Virus record (IMG/VR): IMGVR_UViG_3300024520_004479
Location: 1 to 23,957 of that record
DNA: 23,957 bases
Reading direction: 5' to 3' (one strand)
DNA from: a virus
In this document: one piece after another, positions 11,847 to 23,957 of the stretch
Layout of the letters: every line of letters begins with the position of its first letter
Position numbering within the stretch: position 1 is the stretch's first letter
Translations under genes and position numbers: made by a program
The notes under the pieces: model-generated
The model's input: the letters and a program-made list of their open reading frames with translations, nothing else
The model's database searches: none
Told to the model about the DNA's origin: nothing

Positions 11847-14800
11847 GTGCCCCAGGATCCACACCCCCTCGACCGATTCCTCTCCGGGTTCGGTGCTGCC
11901 CAGCCCGAGGCTGCATCGCCAGCCCCGGCGATGGCCACACAGGATCCCGCTGGCGGGGGCCACCCCCTGGACCGCTTCCTGGCGGGCGAGCCCGTCGACC
12001 AGGCGAGGGCCGACCGAGTCGGCTTCCTCGAGGCCGCCACGACGACGACCTTCGGCGAGCGCAAGGGCCTGTGGGACTGGGTCCCGTTCCTCGCCACGGG
12101 GCGTGAGGGCATCGGCTGGGTTGATATGTACCGGTCGGCCGACGCCTTCAACGGCGGCACGGCCACGGGCGAGCAGCGTGAGATGCTCGAGCAGTTCCTC
12201 GACTACCACGCTCGGGAGCGCGGCTTCGGGGGCAGGGTCGGTGAGATCGCGGGCGACCTGCCCACCTTCGCCGTGGAGTTCGGCGCGGGCCTGGGTCTCG
12301 CCAAGCTGATCGGCCAAAAGGCCATGACGACGGCCGCCGGGAAGGGTCTCCAAAAGGCCCTGACCAAGATGGCTCAGTCGAAGATCGGGACGGCCCTCGA
12401 GCACAACGCGGCCAGCAGAACGGCCGGCAAGCTGATGAAGGCGGGAGCCTCGGGCGTGGCGGTCGGGATCGTGAGCGAGCTCCCCCGGGCCCCCTGGGGC
12501 CGGGTCATGGCCAACGCCAGGCGGCTCCAGTTCCAGCGCCGGTTCCAGCTAGACCGGGAGACGGCTGGGGCTCTGACTATTGAAGTCATGGCCGGCGAGC
12601 AGTCCCTCGTGGACGTTCTGCCGACCGCGATCCTGGACGAGCTGATCGAGTACGGGTCGGAGATGACGGGCGCGGCCATCCCGTTCGTGTCCAAGATCGA
12701 CGCCCTGCACGACGACATACTGGCGTTCTTCTTCTCGAAGCACGGGGTCGAGGCGGGGCGCAAGTTCTTCGGCAAGCACGGCATCGGGGGCGTCTTCTCG
12801 GAGATCGGCGAGGAGTACCTGGGTGGCGCGACCAGGGAGACAATCGGCGCGCTGGGCGGCCCCGAGGAGTTCAAGGGCAGCCTGCCGGACACCCTCGGGC
12901 AGACCCTCGAGATGTATGTCGCATTTGGCCTGCGGGGCGGGGTCGGCACCGCCAAGGGCATCTGGGGGGATGGGGTTGAGGCTACCCGCCAGAGGGCCCG
13001 TGAGGACCAGATCCGCACCGGGATCACCGAGCAGTACGCGAAGATGGGCCTCGAGGGCGAGGAGCTCGAGCGGCGGGTCGAGTTCGACATGGAGGCCCTG
13101 CGCAACGCCAAGTCGCTCGAGGAGGCCAACGCCGAGCAGGACGCCGAACAGGACACGGCGATCACCGAGGAGGAGATCGAGGCCCTCGAGGGGCTGGAGC
13201 CGGAGGACGCTGAGGAGATCCTGCGTGGCAAGGGCCTGGTGCCCACGGAGGAGGAATCCGCCGAGGTGGTCGAACCGGAAGAAGAAACGGTCGAACCCGT
13301 CGAGGGGGCCGAAACTTCCGAGGAATTAAGGGGACAGGAAGCGGAAGAGGTGCCCATCGAGGAGGGCCCCGAGGCGGTCGTTACCGAAGCCGAACAAGAT
13401 CAACCCCAAATCGAGCCCTCTGAGCGCGCGGAGGGGGGGGTCGCCCCAGCAGAACAGGAACCCCCGGACTCCGGGCCAACCAAACCTCCCGCCGAGGCCG
13501 AAAGTCGTGGCCCAGAGGAGACGGGGGTTCCTCCTTCCGCCGAGGCGGAGGAGGAGGAGCCCGACCCCGCCGCGCCGCCCGAGGGCGCCACCGACGCGAT
13601 GCTCCGGCACGGGGACGAGAGCGCCGTCGGCGAGGAGTCGTCCGTCGTCCTGCCCACCGGCAAGTCGATCCCGGCGGCCTACGTCCTGGCCGAGGCCGAG
13701 CTGCTCACCCCCTCGCACGACCCCAGGCGGGGGTTCCGCAAGAACGAGGGCGGGGACGAGAACGAGCGCCCCTACGAGGACCCCACGGAGGGCGCCGCGT
13801 CACGGCAGACCGTCCAGGACATCGCGGCCAAGCTGGACCCCCGGCTCCTGCTCACCGACTCCCCGACAGCCGTGGATGGCCCCCCCATCGTCAACCGCTG
13901 GGGCGTGGTCCTGGGCGGCAACGCGCGCACGATGGCCATGCAGCTGGTCTACGGCGTGGGTGGGGAGGCCGCGGAGAAGTACCGGGCCGCGCTCCGAAAG
14001 GCGGCCAAGCGATACGGGTTTACGCCCGCGGACCTGGATGCCTTCACCAACCCGGTGCTGGTGCGCGAGGTCGCCGCCGGGCACGAGGGGGCCCCGGGCG
14101 AGCTGTCCCGGGTCCTCAATCAGGCCCTCACGACCCCCAAGACGGCCACGACCGACGCGGTCTCGAGGGGGCGCTCGATCAACCCCGCGGCGGCCAGCTC
14201 CATCGCGGACACCCTGGGCGAGGACACCCTGGGCAAGGCCCTGGGCAACCCCATCAAGGCCCGGTCGCTCCTGCAGGCTCTCGTGCGGGCCGGCGCGTTC
14301 GTCGAGGCCGACCTGTTCGAGCTCACCGACCCCAAGGGGGCCCTCACCAAGGCCGGCCGGGCCGTGGTCGAGGAGACCCTCCTGGGGGCCGTGGTGACCG
14401 ATGTGCGCGCCCTGGCGTCCCTGGCGCCTGGGCACCGCAACAAGCTGATCGCGGCCCTGCCGGGGCTGGTGCTGCTCAAGGCTGCCTGGCCCGCCTTCGC
14501 CGAGCACCTGGTGGAGACCGCTGACGCCCTGGCTTCCCTGCGCCAGTCCAAGCAGCGCATGAGCGAGGCCCTGCGCCAGCAGACGATCGAGGACGAGTCC
14601 TGGAAGCTGAACCCCGTGGCCGTGATGCTGGCCAACGCCCTGAGGGACCTGGGGCCGCGGCAGTTCGCCTCCAAGGCGTCAGAGGCCGCTCAAGCCGCCC
14701 AGGAGTCCTCCAGCGGGCAGGGTGGGCTGTTTGAGGGCTCGGTGCCTACGGACCCCTGGGAGGCGCTCAGGGGCGTGTTTGGCCAATGGGAGACAGACCT

Positions 14801-17800
14801 GCCCGACGGCGGCGCAGCGACCATGGGCAGCCCGGGGCCCAGCCGGGAAGCTATGACGGCCCGGCGCGCCGCTCGGGCCAGGCGAAGCGGCGGAACGGCA
14901 CTCGGGTCCCCAGGCGCTTCCGGCAAGACTGCCGGCAAGCCGCCCCCGGGGGGCAGGGGCAAGACGGAGCCGAGCACCATGACCGGCGTGGGCGCGCTCC
15001 CCGCCGGAGACTCCCGCGTCGAGCGCACCCACGCCGTCCTGCGCAAGTTCGGGATCCTGGGCCGGGACGACCCCATCGCCATCGCCAGGACCATGGAGGA
15101 CGCGCGTGACGCCGCCGAGGGAATCGGCGAGGTCGACCTGCGGGGCCGCGACAACCTGTACGCCATCATCATCGACCTGGCGCGCCGCTTCGGCCTGGGC
15201 CAGCCCGGGGTCGGCAAGGACAAGCTGCTGCGCAAGTGGGCGGCCGGCTTCTACCAGACCGACACGTCGGCCATCCGCCTCCGCAAGGCCAGTTTCATCT
15301 CGACCTACTTCCACGAGCTCGGGCACCACCTGCACAAGGTCATGTTCCCGCGGCGGGGCAAGCGCAAGGACCCTGAGACGGGTAAGATGACCGTCCCGGC
15401 CCTGCCGTTCCAGCTCAGCGGCAAGGACTTCCCAAAACAGTGGCGTCCCGGCCTGATCCAGCTTGGGCGCGACCTGTACGGCGACCGGAAGCCCGCGGCC
15501 GGGTATGCCGCCGAGGGCTGGGCCGAGGTGGTCCGCTTCCTCGTCACCGACCCCGCGCACCTGGAGGCCCGCGCCCCGGCGCTGTACCAGGACGTGGCCG
15601 GAACGCTCCAGGGCAAGCACCCCGAGACATGGATCGTCCTGCAGGAGGCCCGGCAACGTTTCCGCGCGTGGCTGGTGGGGTCCGATAAGAACCCCGTCGG
15701 GGGGTTCGTTCAGCGTGGAAAACCCTCCCGGTCGAAGGGCCGCACGCGGCGGGACCGCTGGACGATGGACTGGTTCGACCGTCGCGTCCGCGTCCGCACC
15801 GCGCTCGAGGACATGGGGGTCATGGACAAGATCCCTTTTCACGAGAACCCCTACTGGATGATGCGGCGCGTCGAGGGGCACACCTCGGGCGACCTCAAGC
15901 TGGCCGTGGAGCGCGGAACCTGGGACCCCGCCGACCCAACCAAGGCGCGTACGGGCAAGTCCCTCCACGAGATTTTCGAGCCGGTCAAGGACACGCTCGA
16001 GCTCTGGGAGGACTACGCCATCGCGCGGCGTGTGCTCGAGAAGCGCGACCAGGGCTTCGAGGTGCTCCCCTCGGACCCTCGCGCCGAAGTAACCGCCGGC
16101 AAGAAGCTCGAGGACTTCATCGCCGAGATGGAGGCGCTGCACCCCGAGTTCTCGACCGTGCACGCGGGCTTCCAGGAGTTCAACAAGTGGCTGATGACCG
16201 AGTATTCGGTTCACCACCAACTCCAAACGCCAGAAGCCGCGAAGCTGATCGTCGCCAAGAACCGCGAGTACATCCCGTTCAGGTACGCGGCCACCGACGA
16301 CGCGCTGCGCAAGGCCGGCGGCCGGACGGGCTCGTTCGTCAATCTAGGCACAGGCGTCTCCTGGTTCAAGAACAGCCAGGGCGAGCCGCTGCTCCCACCG
16401 CTGCCCGCGTTCATGGCGCAGCTCGAGGGCATCATCGGTCGCGCGCACCACAACGCGGCATCGCGCGCCCTGCTGACCCTCGCCGACAACCCCGACCTGA
16501 ACGACCGTAGCGCTCGGTGGTTCCAGCGCATCGAGCGGCCGATCGAGGGCTTCAAGGCCAAGGGTGACCAGCTCTCAGCCGAAGTCATGAGGCAACTCGG
16601 CATCACGGAGTCCGGCGGCAAGCTGAGCGTCCCAGGGGAGCTCGCCGGCATGGACGAGGGCGAACTGACCACCCTGATCGAGATGATCGAGAACTTCGAG
16701 GATGCGACGTTCTGGAAGCCGAGCAACGACGTGGATGAGGCGCGCGGCGTCGTGCGCATCCTTGTGAAGGGTAAACCGCAGTTCTACCAGGTGAACGGAG
16801 AGGGCGGGGACCTGCTGCTCTGGGAGACCCTGCGCGGCTTCTACTCGCCCGCCCAGGCCGAGGGGTTCGCCCGCATCGCCACGATGCCGGCGGCGCTGCT
16901 GCGCGCGGGGGCCACGCAGAACAACATCAGCTTCGGGCTCATGAACGTCGTGCGCGACGTGTGGCAGGCGCTCACGCTGACAACGACGATGCTCAAGAAC
17001 CCGAGCCAGATCAGCAGCCGCCTGCTGGGAATCCGGGAGGCGTTCGTCGCGGGAGACTGGTCGGCGCTGTACCAGGCCAGTGGCGCGGACATGGAGGGCC
17101 TCTTCGGGGCCCCCTACTGGAACGAGAAGGAGCGCAAGCTCGACCTAGCGGTATCCTTCGACGAGTCCGGCTTGCTGCGCCCGGAGTCGCGCGCCCACCT
17201 CAAGGCCGGCCGTGTCTTCAAGGCCGCGCTATCCGGGCGCATCGCCACGGCGATCGGGCAGGGCAAGCCCGTCAAGGCCGCGTTCGAGGCCAGCCTGCTG
17301 CCCCTGGCTGGCCGCCTGAACACCCGGCTCGAGCGCATGACCCGCCTGGGCGAGTTCATCGTCCGCTACCGCCAGGCGCAGAGCGAGGGCCTCTCGTCCG
17401 AAGCCGAGGCGCTGGCCATCTCGGGACACGCATCCGCGAACATCACGCTCGATTGGACCAAGGGCGGCCGGCACGCCAAGGTCGTCAACCAGTACATCCC
17501 CTTCTTCAACGCGGCCCTGCTCGGGCCCGCTCGGATCGCGGAGCACCTGGCCGGGGCCGCCAAGAAGGGCCCGGGTCACCTGCTGGGCGCCTTCGCGCGA
17601 ATCTCTAGCTTCATGATCCTGCCGTCGGTGCTGATGTTCCTGATGGTCTGGGACGACGACGAATACTGGAACATCGACCAGAAGAAGCGCGACCGCTACT
17701 GGTACTTCCCGACGGGGCGTTCGGACGCGGGAGCCAAGACGTACCTGCGCCTGCCGAAGCCTTATGGGCTCGCCACCTGGTCAATTCTGGCCGAGCGATC

Positions 17801-18569
17801 CTTCGCGTCCTTGTTCGGCATCGACCCGCAGACGGGCGAGCGAACCGGCGACCCAGAATCCTTCGATGGCGTGATCGGGTCCATCTTGAACGAACTCACC
17901 CCGACGTTCTCCATCGCGGGCGTCCAGCCCGTCATCGAGGTCATGGCTGGCGCGCAGGGCTACGACTTCTACTGGGACAACGAGGTCGTGCCCACGCGCG
18001 ACAAGGATCTGCCCGTCGGGATGCGGGGGGCCGAGCGCTCGTCGCGCCTCTCCAGAATGCTGGGCCACGCCCTCGGATACCCGCCGGCCAAGATCGACCA
18101 CCTAATCTTCGGCTTAACGGCCGGCGCGGGCCGCGACATGGTGCGCACCGTCATTGACCCGATGGTGGGCGTGATCGCCCCCTGGACCGGCGACCTGGGT
18201 GAGCCCTTCCGCAGCGAAGACCTGCCGATCATCCGCCGATTCCTGGACTCCGAGGCTCGGGGCCGGAACGAGGCGGTCGAGCGCTTCTACGAGGACTGGG
18301 AGGATGTCGACGCGGCCAATCGCGGACTCAACCGGCTCGAGGAGATCCACGGGCCCGACGACCGGCGGACGCTGGCCTTCGAGAGCCGCCACCGCTACGA
18401 CCTGTCGCGCTACAAGAAGATGAACCGGCAGAAGCGCCGGTTGGCGAAGCTGTGGAGTGAACTGCGAACCTCCTACCGTGTCGTGGTGGATGCCAATGAC
18501 CTCGATAGAGAGATCCTGCGAATCCACCGCGAGATTGTCGAGACCGCCCGGGACCCCTACCAGCGATAA
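11847..18569 (+). CDS. Giant polyvalent ejection protein: DdrB/ParB-like domain plus HExxH metallopeptidase
   Basis: A 2240-residue protein (GTG start directly after the previous stop) filling the slot of T7 gp16. The N-terminus repeats HPLDRFL (residues 6-12 and 39-45). A helical, partly hydrophobic part follows (about 133-160), then an acidic linker (about 470-565). Residues about 596-800 match the DdrB-like ParB-superfamily domain: LTPSHDPRRGF, DPRLLLTDSPTAVDGPPIV and LGGNARTMAMQ (GGN near 690). A zinc metallopeptidase is indicated by HELGHH at 1156-1161 (H1156, E1157, H1160) and a probable third ligand in AEGWAE (E1223 or E1227). The C-terminal half resembles the large polyvalent-protein-associated C-terminal regions, with KSLHEIFEPVKD and YIPFFNAALLGPARI, and has a hydrophobic segment at 1922-1935. 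No transglycosylase motif was recognised. Likely role: injected with DNA, processing envelope or host targets. The domain calls come from motifs; the virion location comes from context. Confidence 0.75.
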   Translation: MPQDPHPLDRFLSGFGAAQPEAASPAPAMATQDPAGGGHPLDRFLAGEPVDQARADRVGFLEAATTTTFGERKGLWDWVPFLATGREGIGWVDMYRSADAFNGGTATGEQREMLEQFLDYHARERGFGGRVGEIAGDLPTFAVEFGAGLGLAKLIGQKAMTTAAGKGLQKALTKMAQSKIGTALEHNAASRTAGKLMKAGASGVAVGIVSELPRAPWGRVMANARRLQFQRRFQLDRETAGALTIEVMAGEQSLVDVLPTAILDELIEYGSEMTGAAIPFVSKIDALHDDILAFFFSKHGVEAGRKFFGKHGIGGVFSEIGEEYLGGATRETIGALGGPEEFKGSLPDTLGQTLEMYVAFGLRGGVGTAKGIWGDGVEATRQRAREDQIRTGITEQYAKMGLEGEELERRVEFDMEALRNAKSLEEANAEQDAEQDTAITEEEIEALEGLEPEDAEEILRGKGLVPTEEESAEVVEPEEETVEPVEGAETSEELRGQEAEEVPIEEGPEAVVTEAEQDQPQIEPSERAEGGVAPAEQEPPDSGPTKPPAEAESRGPEETGVPPSAEAEEEEPDPAAPPEGATDAMLRHGDESAVGEESSVVLPTGKSIPAAYVLAEAELLTPSHDPRRGFRKNEGGDENERPYEDPTEGAASRQTVQDIAAKLDPRLLLTDSPTAVDGPPIVNRWGVVLGGNARTMAMQLVYGVGGEAAEKYRAALRKAAKRYGFTPADLDAFTNPVLVREVAAGHEGAPGELSRVLNQALTTPKTATTDAVSRGRSINPAAASSIADTLGEDTLGKALGNPIKARSLLQALVRAGAFVEADLFELTDPKGALTKAGRAVVEETLLGAVVTDVRALASLAPGHRNKLIAALPGLVLLKAAWPAFAEHLVETADALASLRQSKQRMSEALRQQTIEDESWKLNPVAVMLANALRDLGPRQFASKASEAAQAAQESSSGQGGLFEGSVPTDPWEALRGVFGQWETDLPDGGAATMGSPGPSREAMTARRAARARRSGGTALGSPGASGKTAGKPPPGGRGKTEPSTMTGVGALPAGDSRVERTHAVLRKFGILGRDDPIAIARTMEDARDAAEGIGEVDLRGRDNLYAIIIDLARRFGLGQPGVGKDKLLRKWAAGFYQTDTSAIRLRKASFISTYFHELGHHLHKVMFPRRGKRKDPETGKMTVPALPFQLSGKDFPKQWRPGLIQLGRDLYGDRKPAAGYAAEGWAEVVRFLVTDPAHLEARAPALYQDVAGTLQGKHPETWIVLQEARQRFRAWLVGSDKNPVGGFVQRGKPSRSKGRTRRDRWTMDWFDRRVRVRTALEDMGVMDKIPFHENPYWMMRRVEGHTSGDLKLAVERGTWDPADPTKARTGKSLHEIFEPVKDTLELWEDYAIARRVLEKRDQGFEVLPSDPRAEVTAGKKLEDFIAEMEALHPEFSTVHAGFQEFNKWLMTEYSVHHQLQTPEAAKLIVAKNREYIPFRYAATDDALRKAGGRTGSFVNLGTGVSWFKNSQGEPLLPPLPAFMAQLEGIIGRAHHNAASRALLTLADNPDLNDRSARWFQRIERPIEGFKAKGDQLSAEVMRQLGITESGGKLSVPGELAGMDEGELTTLIEMIENFEDATFWKPSNDVDEARGVVRILVKGKPQFYQVNGEGGDLLLWETLRGFYSPAQAEGFARIATMPAALLRAGATQNNISFGLMNVVRDVWQALTLTTTMLKNPSQISSRLLGIREAFVAGDWSALYQASGADMEGLFGAPYWNEKERKLDLAVSFDESGLLRPESRAHLKAGRVFKAALSGRIATAIGQGKPVKAAFEASLLPLAGRLNTRLERMTRLGEFIVRYRQAQSEGLSSEAEALAISGHASANITLDWTKGGRHAKVVNQYIPFFNAALLGPARIAEHLAGAAKKGPGHLLGAFARISSFMILPSVLMFLMVWDDDEYWNIDQKKRDRYWYFPTGRSDAGAKTYLRLPKPYGLATWSILAERSFASLFGIDPQTGERTGDPESFDGVIGSILNELTPTFSIAGVQPVIEVMAGAQGYDFYWDNEVVPTRDKDLPVGMRGAERSSRLSRMLGHALGYPPAKIDHLIFGLTAGAGRDMVRTVIDPMVGVIAPWTGDLGEPFRSEDLPIIRRFLDSEARGRNEAVERFYEDWEDVDAANRGLNRLEEIHGPDDRRTLAFESRHRYDLSRYKKMNRQKRRLAKLWSELRTSYRVVVDANDLDREILRIHREIVETARDPYQR

Positions 18570-21181: not shown

Positions 21182-22254
21182 GCCCCGGAGGCGGAATCAG
21201 CCGTTGGATGAAGTTCTACCCCCAGGACTGGCTGGTGGGCGCGCGCGCGATGCCCCTGGCCGCCAAGGGCGCCTACATCGACCTCCTGGCGTACTCGTGG
21301 GACAACCCGCTGCCCGAGGACCCCGCGGCCCTGGCGCGCATCGTTGGGGCCACGCTGGACGAGTTCCTGGCGCTCTGGGACGGCTGGCTGCGGGCCAAGT
21401 TCCAGCGCGGCGAGGACGGCCACCTGCGCAACGCCCGGCTCGAGGAAGTGCGTTCCGGGCAGCTCGCCATCCACGAACAGAGGGTTTCCGCGGGGCGCCG
21501 GGGGGGGGAGGCGAAGTGGGGTGGGAGCGCCGAGCGCGGGCAGCGGACCCGAGCGGAGCGCTTGAAGGCTGCGCGGGCGATCGGAACGCACACCGCGGCA
21601 GAGTGGAAGGCCATGAGGGCGGCCTACGGGCGTTGCCTGCGCTGCGGATCTACCGGCGTCGAGCTCGTCCGCGACCACATTATCCCGCTCTACCAGGGCG
21701 GGTCAGACTCGGTCCAGAACCTCCAGCCGCTCTGTCGCAGCTGCAACGCAGCCAAGGGGCCAGAGTCGCAGGACCACCGCGTAGGTTTGCCGGAGACCGC
21801 GCCCGACTGGATGCCTAGCGGAACGCCTAGCAAACCGATGCAGGTTCAGGTTCAGGTTCAGGTTCAGGATCAGGAGCAGGATCAAGAATCAGATCTGATC
21901 CCGCGCGAGGGAGATCCCGATATGGGGACACCCCGACGTGGAGAACCTGTGGATAACCCCCGATCGGCCAAGCCCTACGGCGGCCTAGCAGATTGGGTAC
22001 CCGAGGCCGTGAGCCGCCTGATCTACGAGACCCTGGTGCCCGCGGGGCTCGCCCACAACGTCATTGACGAAGCGATGGGCCTCCTGATCCGGGGCAACTG
22101 GCTCGGAGGCTTCGACGAGAACACATGCCGGCAGCGACTCACCCAGGTCGTGCTGGCTTCCCCCCAGGCCAGCAAACCGGGCGCCTTCATCCTGTGCATG
22201 CTCCGCGAGGACACCGCAGGCAGGACGGGCCCCATCACCGTGAAGAGCAGATGA
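21178..22254 (+). CDS. DUF1376 replication-type protein with HNH nuclease domain
   Basis: A 358-residue protein starting in an ATGA overlap. Residues about 9-105 are a DUF1376 domain (MKFYPQDWLVGARAMPLAAK, DGWLRAKF, then AGRRGGEAKW), found in phage proteins thought to act in replication initiation. Residues about 135-200 form an HNH nuclease: C153xxC156, then DH at 166-167 (DHIIPLYQGG), then C186xxC189-N190. This gives two zinc CxxC pairs and the catalytic histidine, so the nuclease looks intact. A Gln/Val/Asp linker (about 221-240) precedes a C-terminal helical domain (about 262-358), VPEAVSRLIYETLVPAGLAH and following, like a replisome-organiser tail. It may nick DNA at an origin, or the HNH may be a homing-type intruder in a replication protein. 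A G9 run lies at the domain junction. Confidence 0.75.
   Translation: MSPGGGISRWMKFYPQDWLVGARAMPLAAKGAYIDLLAYSWDNPLPEDPAALARIVGATLDEFLALWDGWLRAKFQRGEDGHLRNARLEEVRSGQLAIHEQRVSAGRRGGEAKWGGSAERGQRTRAERLKAARAIGTHTAAEWKAMRAAYGRCLRCGSTGVELVRDHIIPLYQGGSDSVQNLQPLCRSCNAAKGPESQDHRVGLPETAPDWMPSGTPSKPMQVQVQVQVQDQEQDQESDLIPREGDPDMGTPRRGEPVDNPRSAKPYGGLADWVPEAVSRLIYETLVPAGLAHNVIDEAMGLLIRGNWLGGFDENTCRQRLTQVVLASPQASKPGAFILCMLREDTAGRTGPITVKSR
21841..21882 (+). repeat. CAGGTT hexamer tract coding a Gln-Val linker
   Basis: Four perfect CAGGTT units followed by three diverged ones (CAGGAT, CAGGAG, CAGGAT) encode QVQVQVQVQDQEQD in the linker of the DUF1376-HNH protein. The unit is 6 bases, so copy-number change keeps the frame and only alters linker length. 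Confidence 0.85.
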
Positions 22255-23288: not shown

Positions 23289-23482
23289 GCAGCTCCCCGA
23301 GCGAGGGCGCGGCAGCGGAGTCGAGGCTGCGCCGGCTGGACGGACTGCACGCAACGCGGGACTGGCTCGAGGATTGGTTGGGCCGGGCGTTCGCACTTGG
23401 AAAGATAAGCGGGCGCCGCGAACTGGTGCGGACCCTACGCAAGGAGAAGAAAGCCAATGACAAACAAGACAAAACGAGTTGA
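23285..23482 (+). CDS. Small basic orphan protein
   Basis: A 65-residue protein with a GTG start in a GTGA overlap with the coiled-coil gene. It has a helical middle (RLRRLDGLHATRDWLEDWLG) and a basic tail (RRELVRTLRKEKKANDK). No domain is recognised. The 3' end overlaps the next gene by 26 bases in another frame, and AAGGAG inside it serves as that gene's ribosome binding site. Coupling to its neighbours supports it as a real early gene; function unknown. Confidence 0.5.
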   Translation: MSSSPSEGAAAESRLRRLDGLHATRDWLEDWLGRAFALGKISGRRELVRTLRKEKKANDKQDKTS

Positions 23483-23957
23483 AAAACTAACCCCCGCTCA
23501 AGAGGCTCGCATGGAGTCCTGGGCCGACGAGTGGATTGCCAAGGGGCTGTCTACGGAACGTGCCGACTGGGAGGAGTTTGAGGCGGGCGCGCGGGACTGC
23601 TATCGCTTGGCGGGCCTAGAGCCCCCGAAGGTGATTGTGCGCTGTGCCAGCCCGCGTGTGGTTATGATCGCTGGCAGCCTAGCCGACCAAATCATCGGCG
23701 GCGGCGCGGTGCGCGGCGCGGTGGGCGGCGCGGTGGACGCCGCGGTGGACGACGCGGTGCACGACGCGGTGGGCGGCGCGGTGTACGGCCCGGTGCACGA
23801 CGCGGTGCGCGACGCGGTGCGCGGCGCGGTGGACGACGCGGTGGGCGGCGCGGTGCGCGGCGCGGTGCGTGACGCGGTGAGCGACGCGGTGCACGGCGCG
23901 GTGGGCGGCGCGGTGGGCGACGCGGTGCACGGCGCGGTGGACGACGCGGTGGACGAC
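23457..23957 (+). CDS. Tetrapeptide-repeat protein (runs off right edge)
   Basis: At least 167 residues, from the ATG at 23457 behind AAGGAG, open to the window end. Residues 1-82 form a compact N-terminal part: LTPAQEARMESWADEWIAKG, then LSTERADWEEFEAGARDCYR and LAGLEPPKVIVRCASP. This pattern (WIAxGLSTExAD, then GLEPPKVIVxxxSP) is one I recall from phage and actinobacterial proteins of the DUF6745-like kind that continue into short hydrophobic repeats. From residue 83 the protein is 21 uninterrupted copies of [G/D/A]-[A/P]-V-x. No function is established. The C-terminal domain, needed for a firm family call, lies outside the window. Because the right end is open, the frame has no in-window stop. 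Confidence 0.7.
   Translation, partial: MTNKTKRVEKLTPAQEARMESWADEWIAKGLSTERADWEEFEAGARDCYRLAGLEPPKVIVRCASPRVVMIAGSLADQIIGGGAVRGAVGGAVDAAVDDAVHDAVGGAVYGPVHDAVRDAVRGAVDDAVGGAVRGAVRDAVSDAVHGAVGGAVGDAVHGAVDDAVDD
23703..23957 (+). repeat. 12-bp degenerate tandem repeat, 21 copies to window end
   Basis: The unit is GRC-GCG-GTG-NRY in codon phase. The third codon is GTG in all 21 copies, and the second is GCG in 20 (CCG once, copy 8). The first codon is GGC 11 times, GAC 9 times and GCC once. The fourth varies among CGC, CGT, GGC, GAC, CAC, TAC and AGC. There are no spacers or length changes. Confidence 0.93.

Follow-up and report, generated by a model that had tools for sequence, protein, structure and literature searches.

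A tetrapeptide array at the contig end

The window, by which we mean the whole stretch of DNA analysed here, is a virus record of 23,957 bases that ends inside an open gene. This partial gene occupies positions 23457 to 23957 on the plus strand, as defined by the ORF list and by alignments, and 167 amino acids of it are seen. Its N-terminal helical domain of approximately 82 residues (23457 to 23702, plus strand), delimited by AlphaFold2 and HMM matches, is followed by a tetrapeptide array of 21 tandem 12-bp units (23703 to 23954, plus strand), which is in frame with the ORF starting at 23457. The units read G[G/A]C-GCG-GTG-NRY and encode [G/D]-A-V-[R/G/D/H/S/Y]. The last three bases, GAC (23955 to 23957, plus strand), open unit 22, which is truncated there as the contig stops. 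A first-pass annotation had reported a 21-copy, 12-bp repeat from position 23703, and these coordinates proved exact. Because the ORF leaves the contig inside the array, 21 is the number of units seen rather than the full copy number.

Tandem Repeats Finder assigned the array a score of 278-343, far above all else in the window. Among the 21 units, the first codon is GGC in 11, GAC in nine and GCC in one; the second is GCG in 20 and CCG in one; the third is invariably GTG; and the fourth is GGC (five), GAC (five), CGC (four), CAC (four), TAC, CGT or AGC. The GCG and GTG codons had been described as frozen and the first codon as a swap between GGC and GAC. The former holds, with CCG occurring once, while the latter has one exception, the GCC codon for alanine. 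Elsewhere in this phage, GCG makes up 33% of alanine codons and GTG 37% of valine codons. Given this usage, the probability of 20 GCG codons in the array is 2.5e-10, that of 21 GTG codons is 8e-10, and all synonymous choices of the array together have a probability of ~10^-27.6.

Two other features of the window were recorded. Positions 21841-21884 contain a short CAGGTT/CAGGAT repeat, encoding alternating Q-V and Q-D, within a DUF1376-HNH protein, and a 2240-residue ORF at 11847-18569 gave partial matches only, to phrog_5143 and phrog_9854, which are phage families of unknown function.

A family of array proteins with a conserved neighbour

A protein search together with a DNA-pattern scan of viral contigs yielded roughly 80 different genes that carry such an array. 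In relatives in which the whole gene is available, a helical N-domain of about 80 residues precedes the tetrapeptide array, and a DUF6745 (PF20530) domain forms the C-terminus. The PF20530 matches scored 142.9 bits in L002 (E=1e-41), 95.8 in L004, 93.3 in L005 and 54.2 in L006, against a Pfam cut-off of 27, which bears out the connection to DUF6745 raised in the first-pass annotation. Relatives L002-L004 match the window N-domain and array at E values of 1e-28 to 1e-42 and, as in these relatives, the shared N-domain of the window gene runs straight into the array. By this similarity, the C-terminal DUF6745 domain of the window gene would lie past the contig end. Alignments of 20 sequences (whole gene) and 34 sequences (N-domain and array) were clean in the end domains. 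L11, W26, I27, G30, Y49 and P66 of the N-domain are invariant, as is an A in the alignments of 20 and 34 sequences. A tblastn search for the window N-domain in phage isolates gave no match.

Complete arrays in the set of 80 contain 13 to 81 units. This set is conservative, as nine loci were set aside, six of which are family members with SAT arrays. Arrays with cores other than AV were also found, namely QL (L108, a Mycobacterium abscessus prophage), SL (L109), SAV (L114 and L115, Mycobacterium) and SAT (six loci); in each of them one or two positions vary, mostly among polar residues. What the lineages have in common is the period of four and a variable polar site, not the core residues (AV, QL, SL, SAV, SAT). 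The N-domain is common to array-bearing and array-less homologues, with HMM matches to array-less bacterial proteins at 1e-11 to 1e-16, and the array-less homologues in bacteria and Microcystis phages retain both end domains. Thus the window family is like the DUF6745 proteins of Actinomycetota and of Microcystis phages such as Ma-LMM01 in its N- and C-terminal domains and in its adjoining phrog_27831-type gene, but the homologues examined there carry an ordinary linker in place of the tetrapeptide array.

This neighbour, phrog_27831, codes for a small protein in which QGDV, G-x-H and H-x-EH motifs are conserved, and it lies next to the array gene either upstream or downstream. Its histidine pattern may be cupin-like. 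It is found beside 61 of 90 loci, with most of the others cut by contig ends, and beside 22 of the 23 complete array genes that have 600 bases on both sides. Because the profile was initially built on members chosen by motif beside arrays, bacterial loci provide a more independent test, although bacterial matches also fed the iterated profile; among bacterial DUF6745 loci without an array, taken from one family search, 29 of 29 have the neighbour, and it also occurs in Microcystis phages. Retained beside array-bearing and array-less genes alike, the pair is therefore a module. In the window, no phrog_27831-type gene lies upstream of the partial gene, and the downstream side lies past the contig end. 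On a Streptomyces plasmid (L110:1-3513), a DUF6745 gene that lacks the array adjoins, together with the small neighbour gene, members of the STM4014 and STM4015 families.

A tie to one recombination module was considered and rejected, since of 31 records just three had the PF12684 exonuclease and two had phrog_3657. Comparison with known anti-phage defence families (PADLOC) gave no convincing match, and the literature searched gave no measured function for any DUF6745 protein. Seven GAVD units also occur in a long, unrelated phage protein (L031:6815-8587 and L091:8263-10035) that matched neither the N-domain, DUF6745 nor the neighbour gene, and on these sequence comparisons we regard them as a chance or convergent short array.

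AlphaFold2 run with alignments gave well-folded end domains, with pLDDT mostly 80-95; in the window N-domain, pLDDT was 84-94 for residues 11 to 80 and 75 for the first ten residues. The array was modelled as one long helix, with pLDDT of ~57 in the window protein and 30-60 in L036, and is thus probably a long alpha-helix, at the low confidence of this prediction; the novel solenoid that had been raised as one possibility is not supported. A pentapeptide or hexapeptide beta-helix was discarded, as the period is four throughout, not five or six, and a helix is predicted. Searches with the whole L036 model gave no match with E <2 in the Protein Data Bank (Foldseek) and no Z >4.1 (VIA-align, with coverage mainly of residues 365-456), which at this whole-model scope is not evidence of a new fold; matches among viral models were other DUF6745 proteins. 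Sequence searches found no relatives of DUF6745 proteins with solved structures.

The array could also be a glycine-zipper membrane segment (Pfam Gly-zipper_OmpA, PF13436, GxxxG), and this profile does score above its cut-off of 27 bits in L002 (35.6), L004 (41.7) and L005 (37.6). Nevertheless, we consider this assignment extremely unlikely: the window protein reaches 17.4 bits, Asp occupies position 1 in 37% of units, position 4 carries mainly charged or polar residues, and the regular Gly is absent from the homologous QL, SL and SAT arrays.

Variation within and between arrays

We quantified variation in the 80 arrays, which together comprise 2334 units. Within arrays, heterozygosity along the 12-base unit averaged.03.43.02 /.01.01.02 /.01.00.02 /.48.42.03. 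Variation is therefore confined to three bases, one in codon 1 (its second) and two in codon 4 (its first and second), and all of it changes the amino acid. The variable residues of these arrays are R, G, D, H, S and Y, with W in other lineages, consistent with the small or polar character ascribed to these sites from the window. Silent bases, by comparison, are fixed inside each gene and different between genes, such that 20 DNA backbones, each with its own core codons and third bases, encode one protein pattern. In the same codons, the mean minor fraction was 0.33 and 0.32 for replacement transitions versus 0.005 and 0.004 for silent transitions; the former were variable in 77-79 of 80 arrays and the latter in 3-8 of 80.

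In 26 genes, G and D take one third base at position 1 of the unit and another at position 4, a rule obeyed in 657 of 664 and 412 of 420 codons (1069 of 1084 overall). Since the third bases of G and D differ by position, codon preference is excluded and the units of one gene descend from each other. Together with the codon-usage probabilities calculated for the window array, this split ruled out codon preference as the cause of the frozen silent sites.

Homogenisation, to which the first-pass annotation had attributed the frozen sites, thus stands within each gene but is incomplete as the sole cause. Homogenisation alone would treat replacement and silent changes alike, so something else maintains the residue diversity, and diversifying selection (or targeted change) is needed besides homogenisation. 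The array could in principle be a self-propagating product of slippage in a tolerant linker, its mixture of residues reflecting relaxed selection only. The wide spread of copy number would fit such neutral expansion, as would the array-less homologues, which indicate that the domain pair can do without an array. We nonetheless judge it improbable, since relaxed selection would also admit silent changes, which, within one mutation class and the same codons, are ~70-fold rarer than replacements, and since the same composition recurs on the 20 DNA backbones.

Targeted writing of the variable bases, by a diversity-generating retroelement or a similar system, was also weighed, because variation at set bases recalls a degenerate template. 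A-to-N mutagenesis is the known mode of diversity-generating retroelements, whereas in the fourth codon G and A account for nearly all second bases. Furthermore, reverse transcriptase (PF00078) was found in 0 of 32 virus records that carry the gene, records that may be fragments, while controls were found in 3 of 14. This mechanism is accordingly barely plausible as the source of the variation.

Comparisons between relatives, which the first-pass annotation had proposed, did reveal array dynamics. L076 and L082, from different contigs, share an identical flank of at least 1.5 kb that follows the array, and their arrays begin to differ within a few units of this flank. The arrays of L016 and L041, and of L008 and L089, differ likewise, with flank identities of 91% and 87%, respectively. 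L064 and L100 have identical arrays across the 12 units visible in both contigs, and the contigs are 100% identical over 10.8 kb, so that on sequence they are probably one phage. Many of the lengths were taken from short-read metagenomes, in which arrays may be wrongly assembled. Within the 80 arrays, associations between variable sites are strong only for neighbours and are gone by approximately two units, consistent with frequent fine-scale shuffling. Beyond about two units, the succession of variants showed no long periodicity, at helix phase or otherwise, and we detected no rules of residue pairing or spacing that were consistent across genes.

These patterns bear on the possibility that the variable residues, rather than the length, are what matter, with the array forming a surface that can change so as to evade host sensors or to bind new partners, and with a meaningful order of units. 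Diversity is limited to two positions in nearly every array, and the residues found there would suit such a surface, but pairing and spacing of residues follow no consistent pattern across genes, and the service of AV, QL, SL and SAT cores in the same protein fits a generic spacer better than a specific binding surface. We therefore regard this explanation as unlikely. The stronger proposal that the order of variable residues carries information, as a combinatorial recognition code that evolves fast on a helical rod and is rewritten by phage recombination, we consider very improbable.

In a separate observation, at least 11 viral contigs begin and end inside one array (L012/L047, L033/L039, L044/L048, L052/L064, L053/L067, L061/L081, L075/L078, L021/L045, L066/L082, L041/L089 and L017/L080). 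These are probably circular genomes broken only at the repeat, though they may be classed as linear.

A proposed tunable linker, by analogy with Tweety gp54

Although the array had been put forward as the best candidate for an undescribed repeat system, its 12-bp design was described in 2007, when Pham and colleagues reported that Tweety gene 54 contains a 12-bp repeat with invariant alanine codons and third positions (PMC2884959). First and second positions are variable in that repeat, and the authors suggested selection for variation (PMC2884959). According to reviews, a prophage-encoded defence is counteracted by Tweety gp54, and escape mutants carry more or fewer repeats (PMC9262239, PMC8549241). 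Like Tweety gp54 and its relatives Che8 gp57 and PMC gp51 (phrog_3416), the window family has a central array of 12 bp and four residues per unit with two fixed codons, frozen silent bases, and two other codons that vary in their first and second bases. What does remain of the claim to novelty is that the flanking domains are unrelated to gp54: profile searches gave E = 5 for both end domains, which are not homologous. In addition, the core of Tweety gp54 is AA with G/W/Q and S/Y, as opposed to AV, QL, SL, SAV or SAT in the DUF6745 array proteins, and no phrog_27831 neighbour was found in the stretch of Tweety examined. By sequence, then, the window gene family resembles Tweety gp54 in its repeat and is not a member of the phrog_3416 family. 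As published (PMC2884959), Bordetella phage BMP-1 bbp36 VR2 shares a repeat number that varies among phage isolates, but differs in being a 24-bp element with spacers. Literature searches on tetrapeptide repeats found nothing relevant beyond the Tweety papers.

Sequenced isolates of the Tweety group allowed a direct comparison of arrays. Tweety, DeadP, Taj and KristaRAM are identical over 426 of 426 bases of the N-terminal flank and 108 of 108 bases of the C-terminal flank, and have 48, 38, 30 and 16 units, respectively (our script gives one more in each case, for a further AA before the tail). The edges of these arrays are common to all four and the interior is scrambled.

The explanation we favour, which has about an even chance of being correct, is that the array acts as a length- and surface-variable linker, probably helical, that joins the N-domain to DUF6745 and is rapidly re-tuned in a phage-host conflict module, in which the protein would work with the small protein of its neighbour phrog_27831. 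It draws on the analogy with Tweety and on the low-confidence helix. Slippage or unequal recombination would constantly add, remove and re-order units, and this turnover would sweep silent changes away while selection kept both polar positions mixed. In a helix of four-residue units, each additional unit would contribute approximately 6 angstroms and 40 degrees of rotation, such that copy number would set the distance and relative orientation of the end domains. Encounters with unfamiliar defences of hosts or prophages would then favour new lengths or surfaces, as has been reported for Tweety gp54, which is not homologous. Given the non-homologous end domains and the lack of a phrog_27831 neighbour found for gp54, the transfer of function is by analogy only.

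Taken together, a design that was earlier a curiosity of one phage group recurs in a second, non-homologous family, which is present in many phages and some prophages and bears the genetic signature of maintained diversity plus homogenisation. The literature searched gave no account of the breadth of this family, of the replacement-only signature across 80 genes or of the conserved neighbour. Should linker tuning hold, slippage would offer phages a general route to re-tune a protein; the second system makes the mechanism testable outside the Tweety group and provides a first handle on DUF6745 function.

Within the Tweety type itself, mycobacteriophage Blexus (L156:85-834) carries an array whose variable residues are R, E, K, W and I, S, not G, W, Q and S, Y. 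Over the 108 bases at the C-terminal end Blexus is identical to Tweety, but its N-terminal part aligns poorly.
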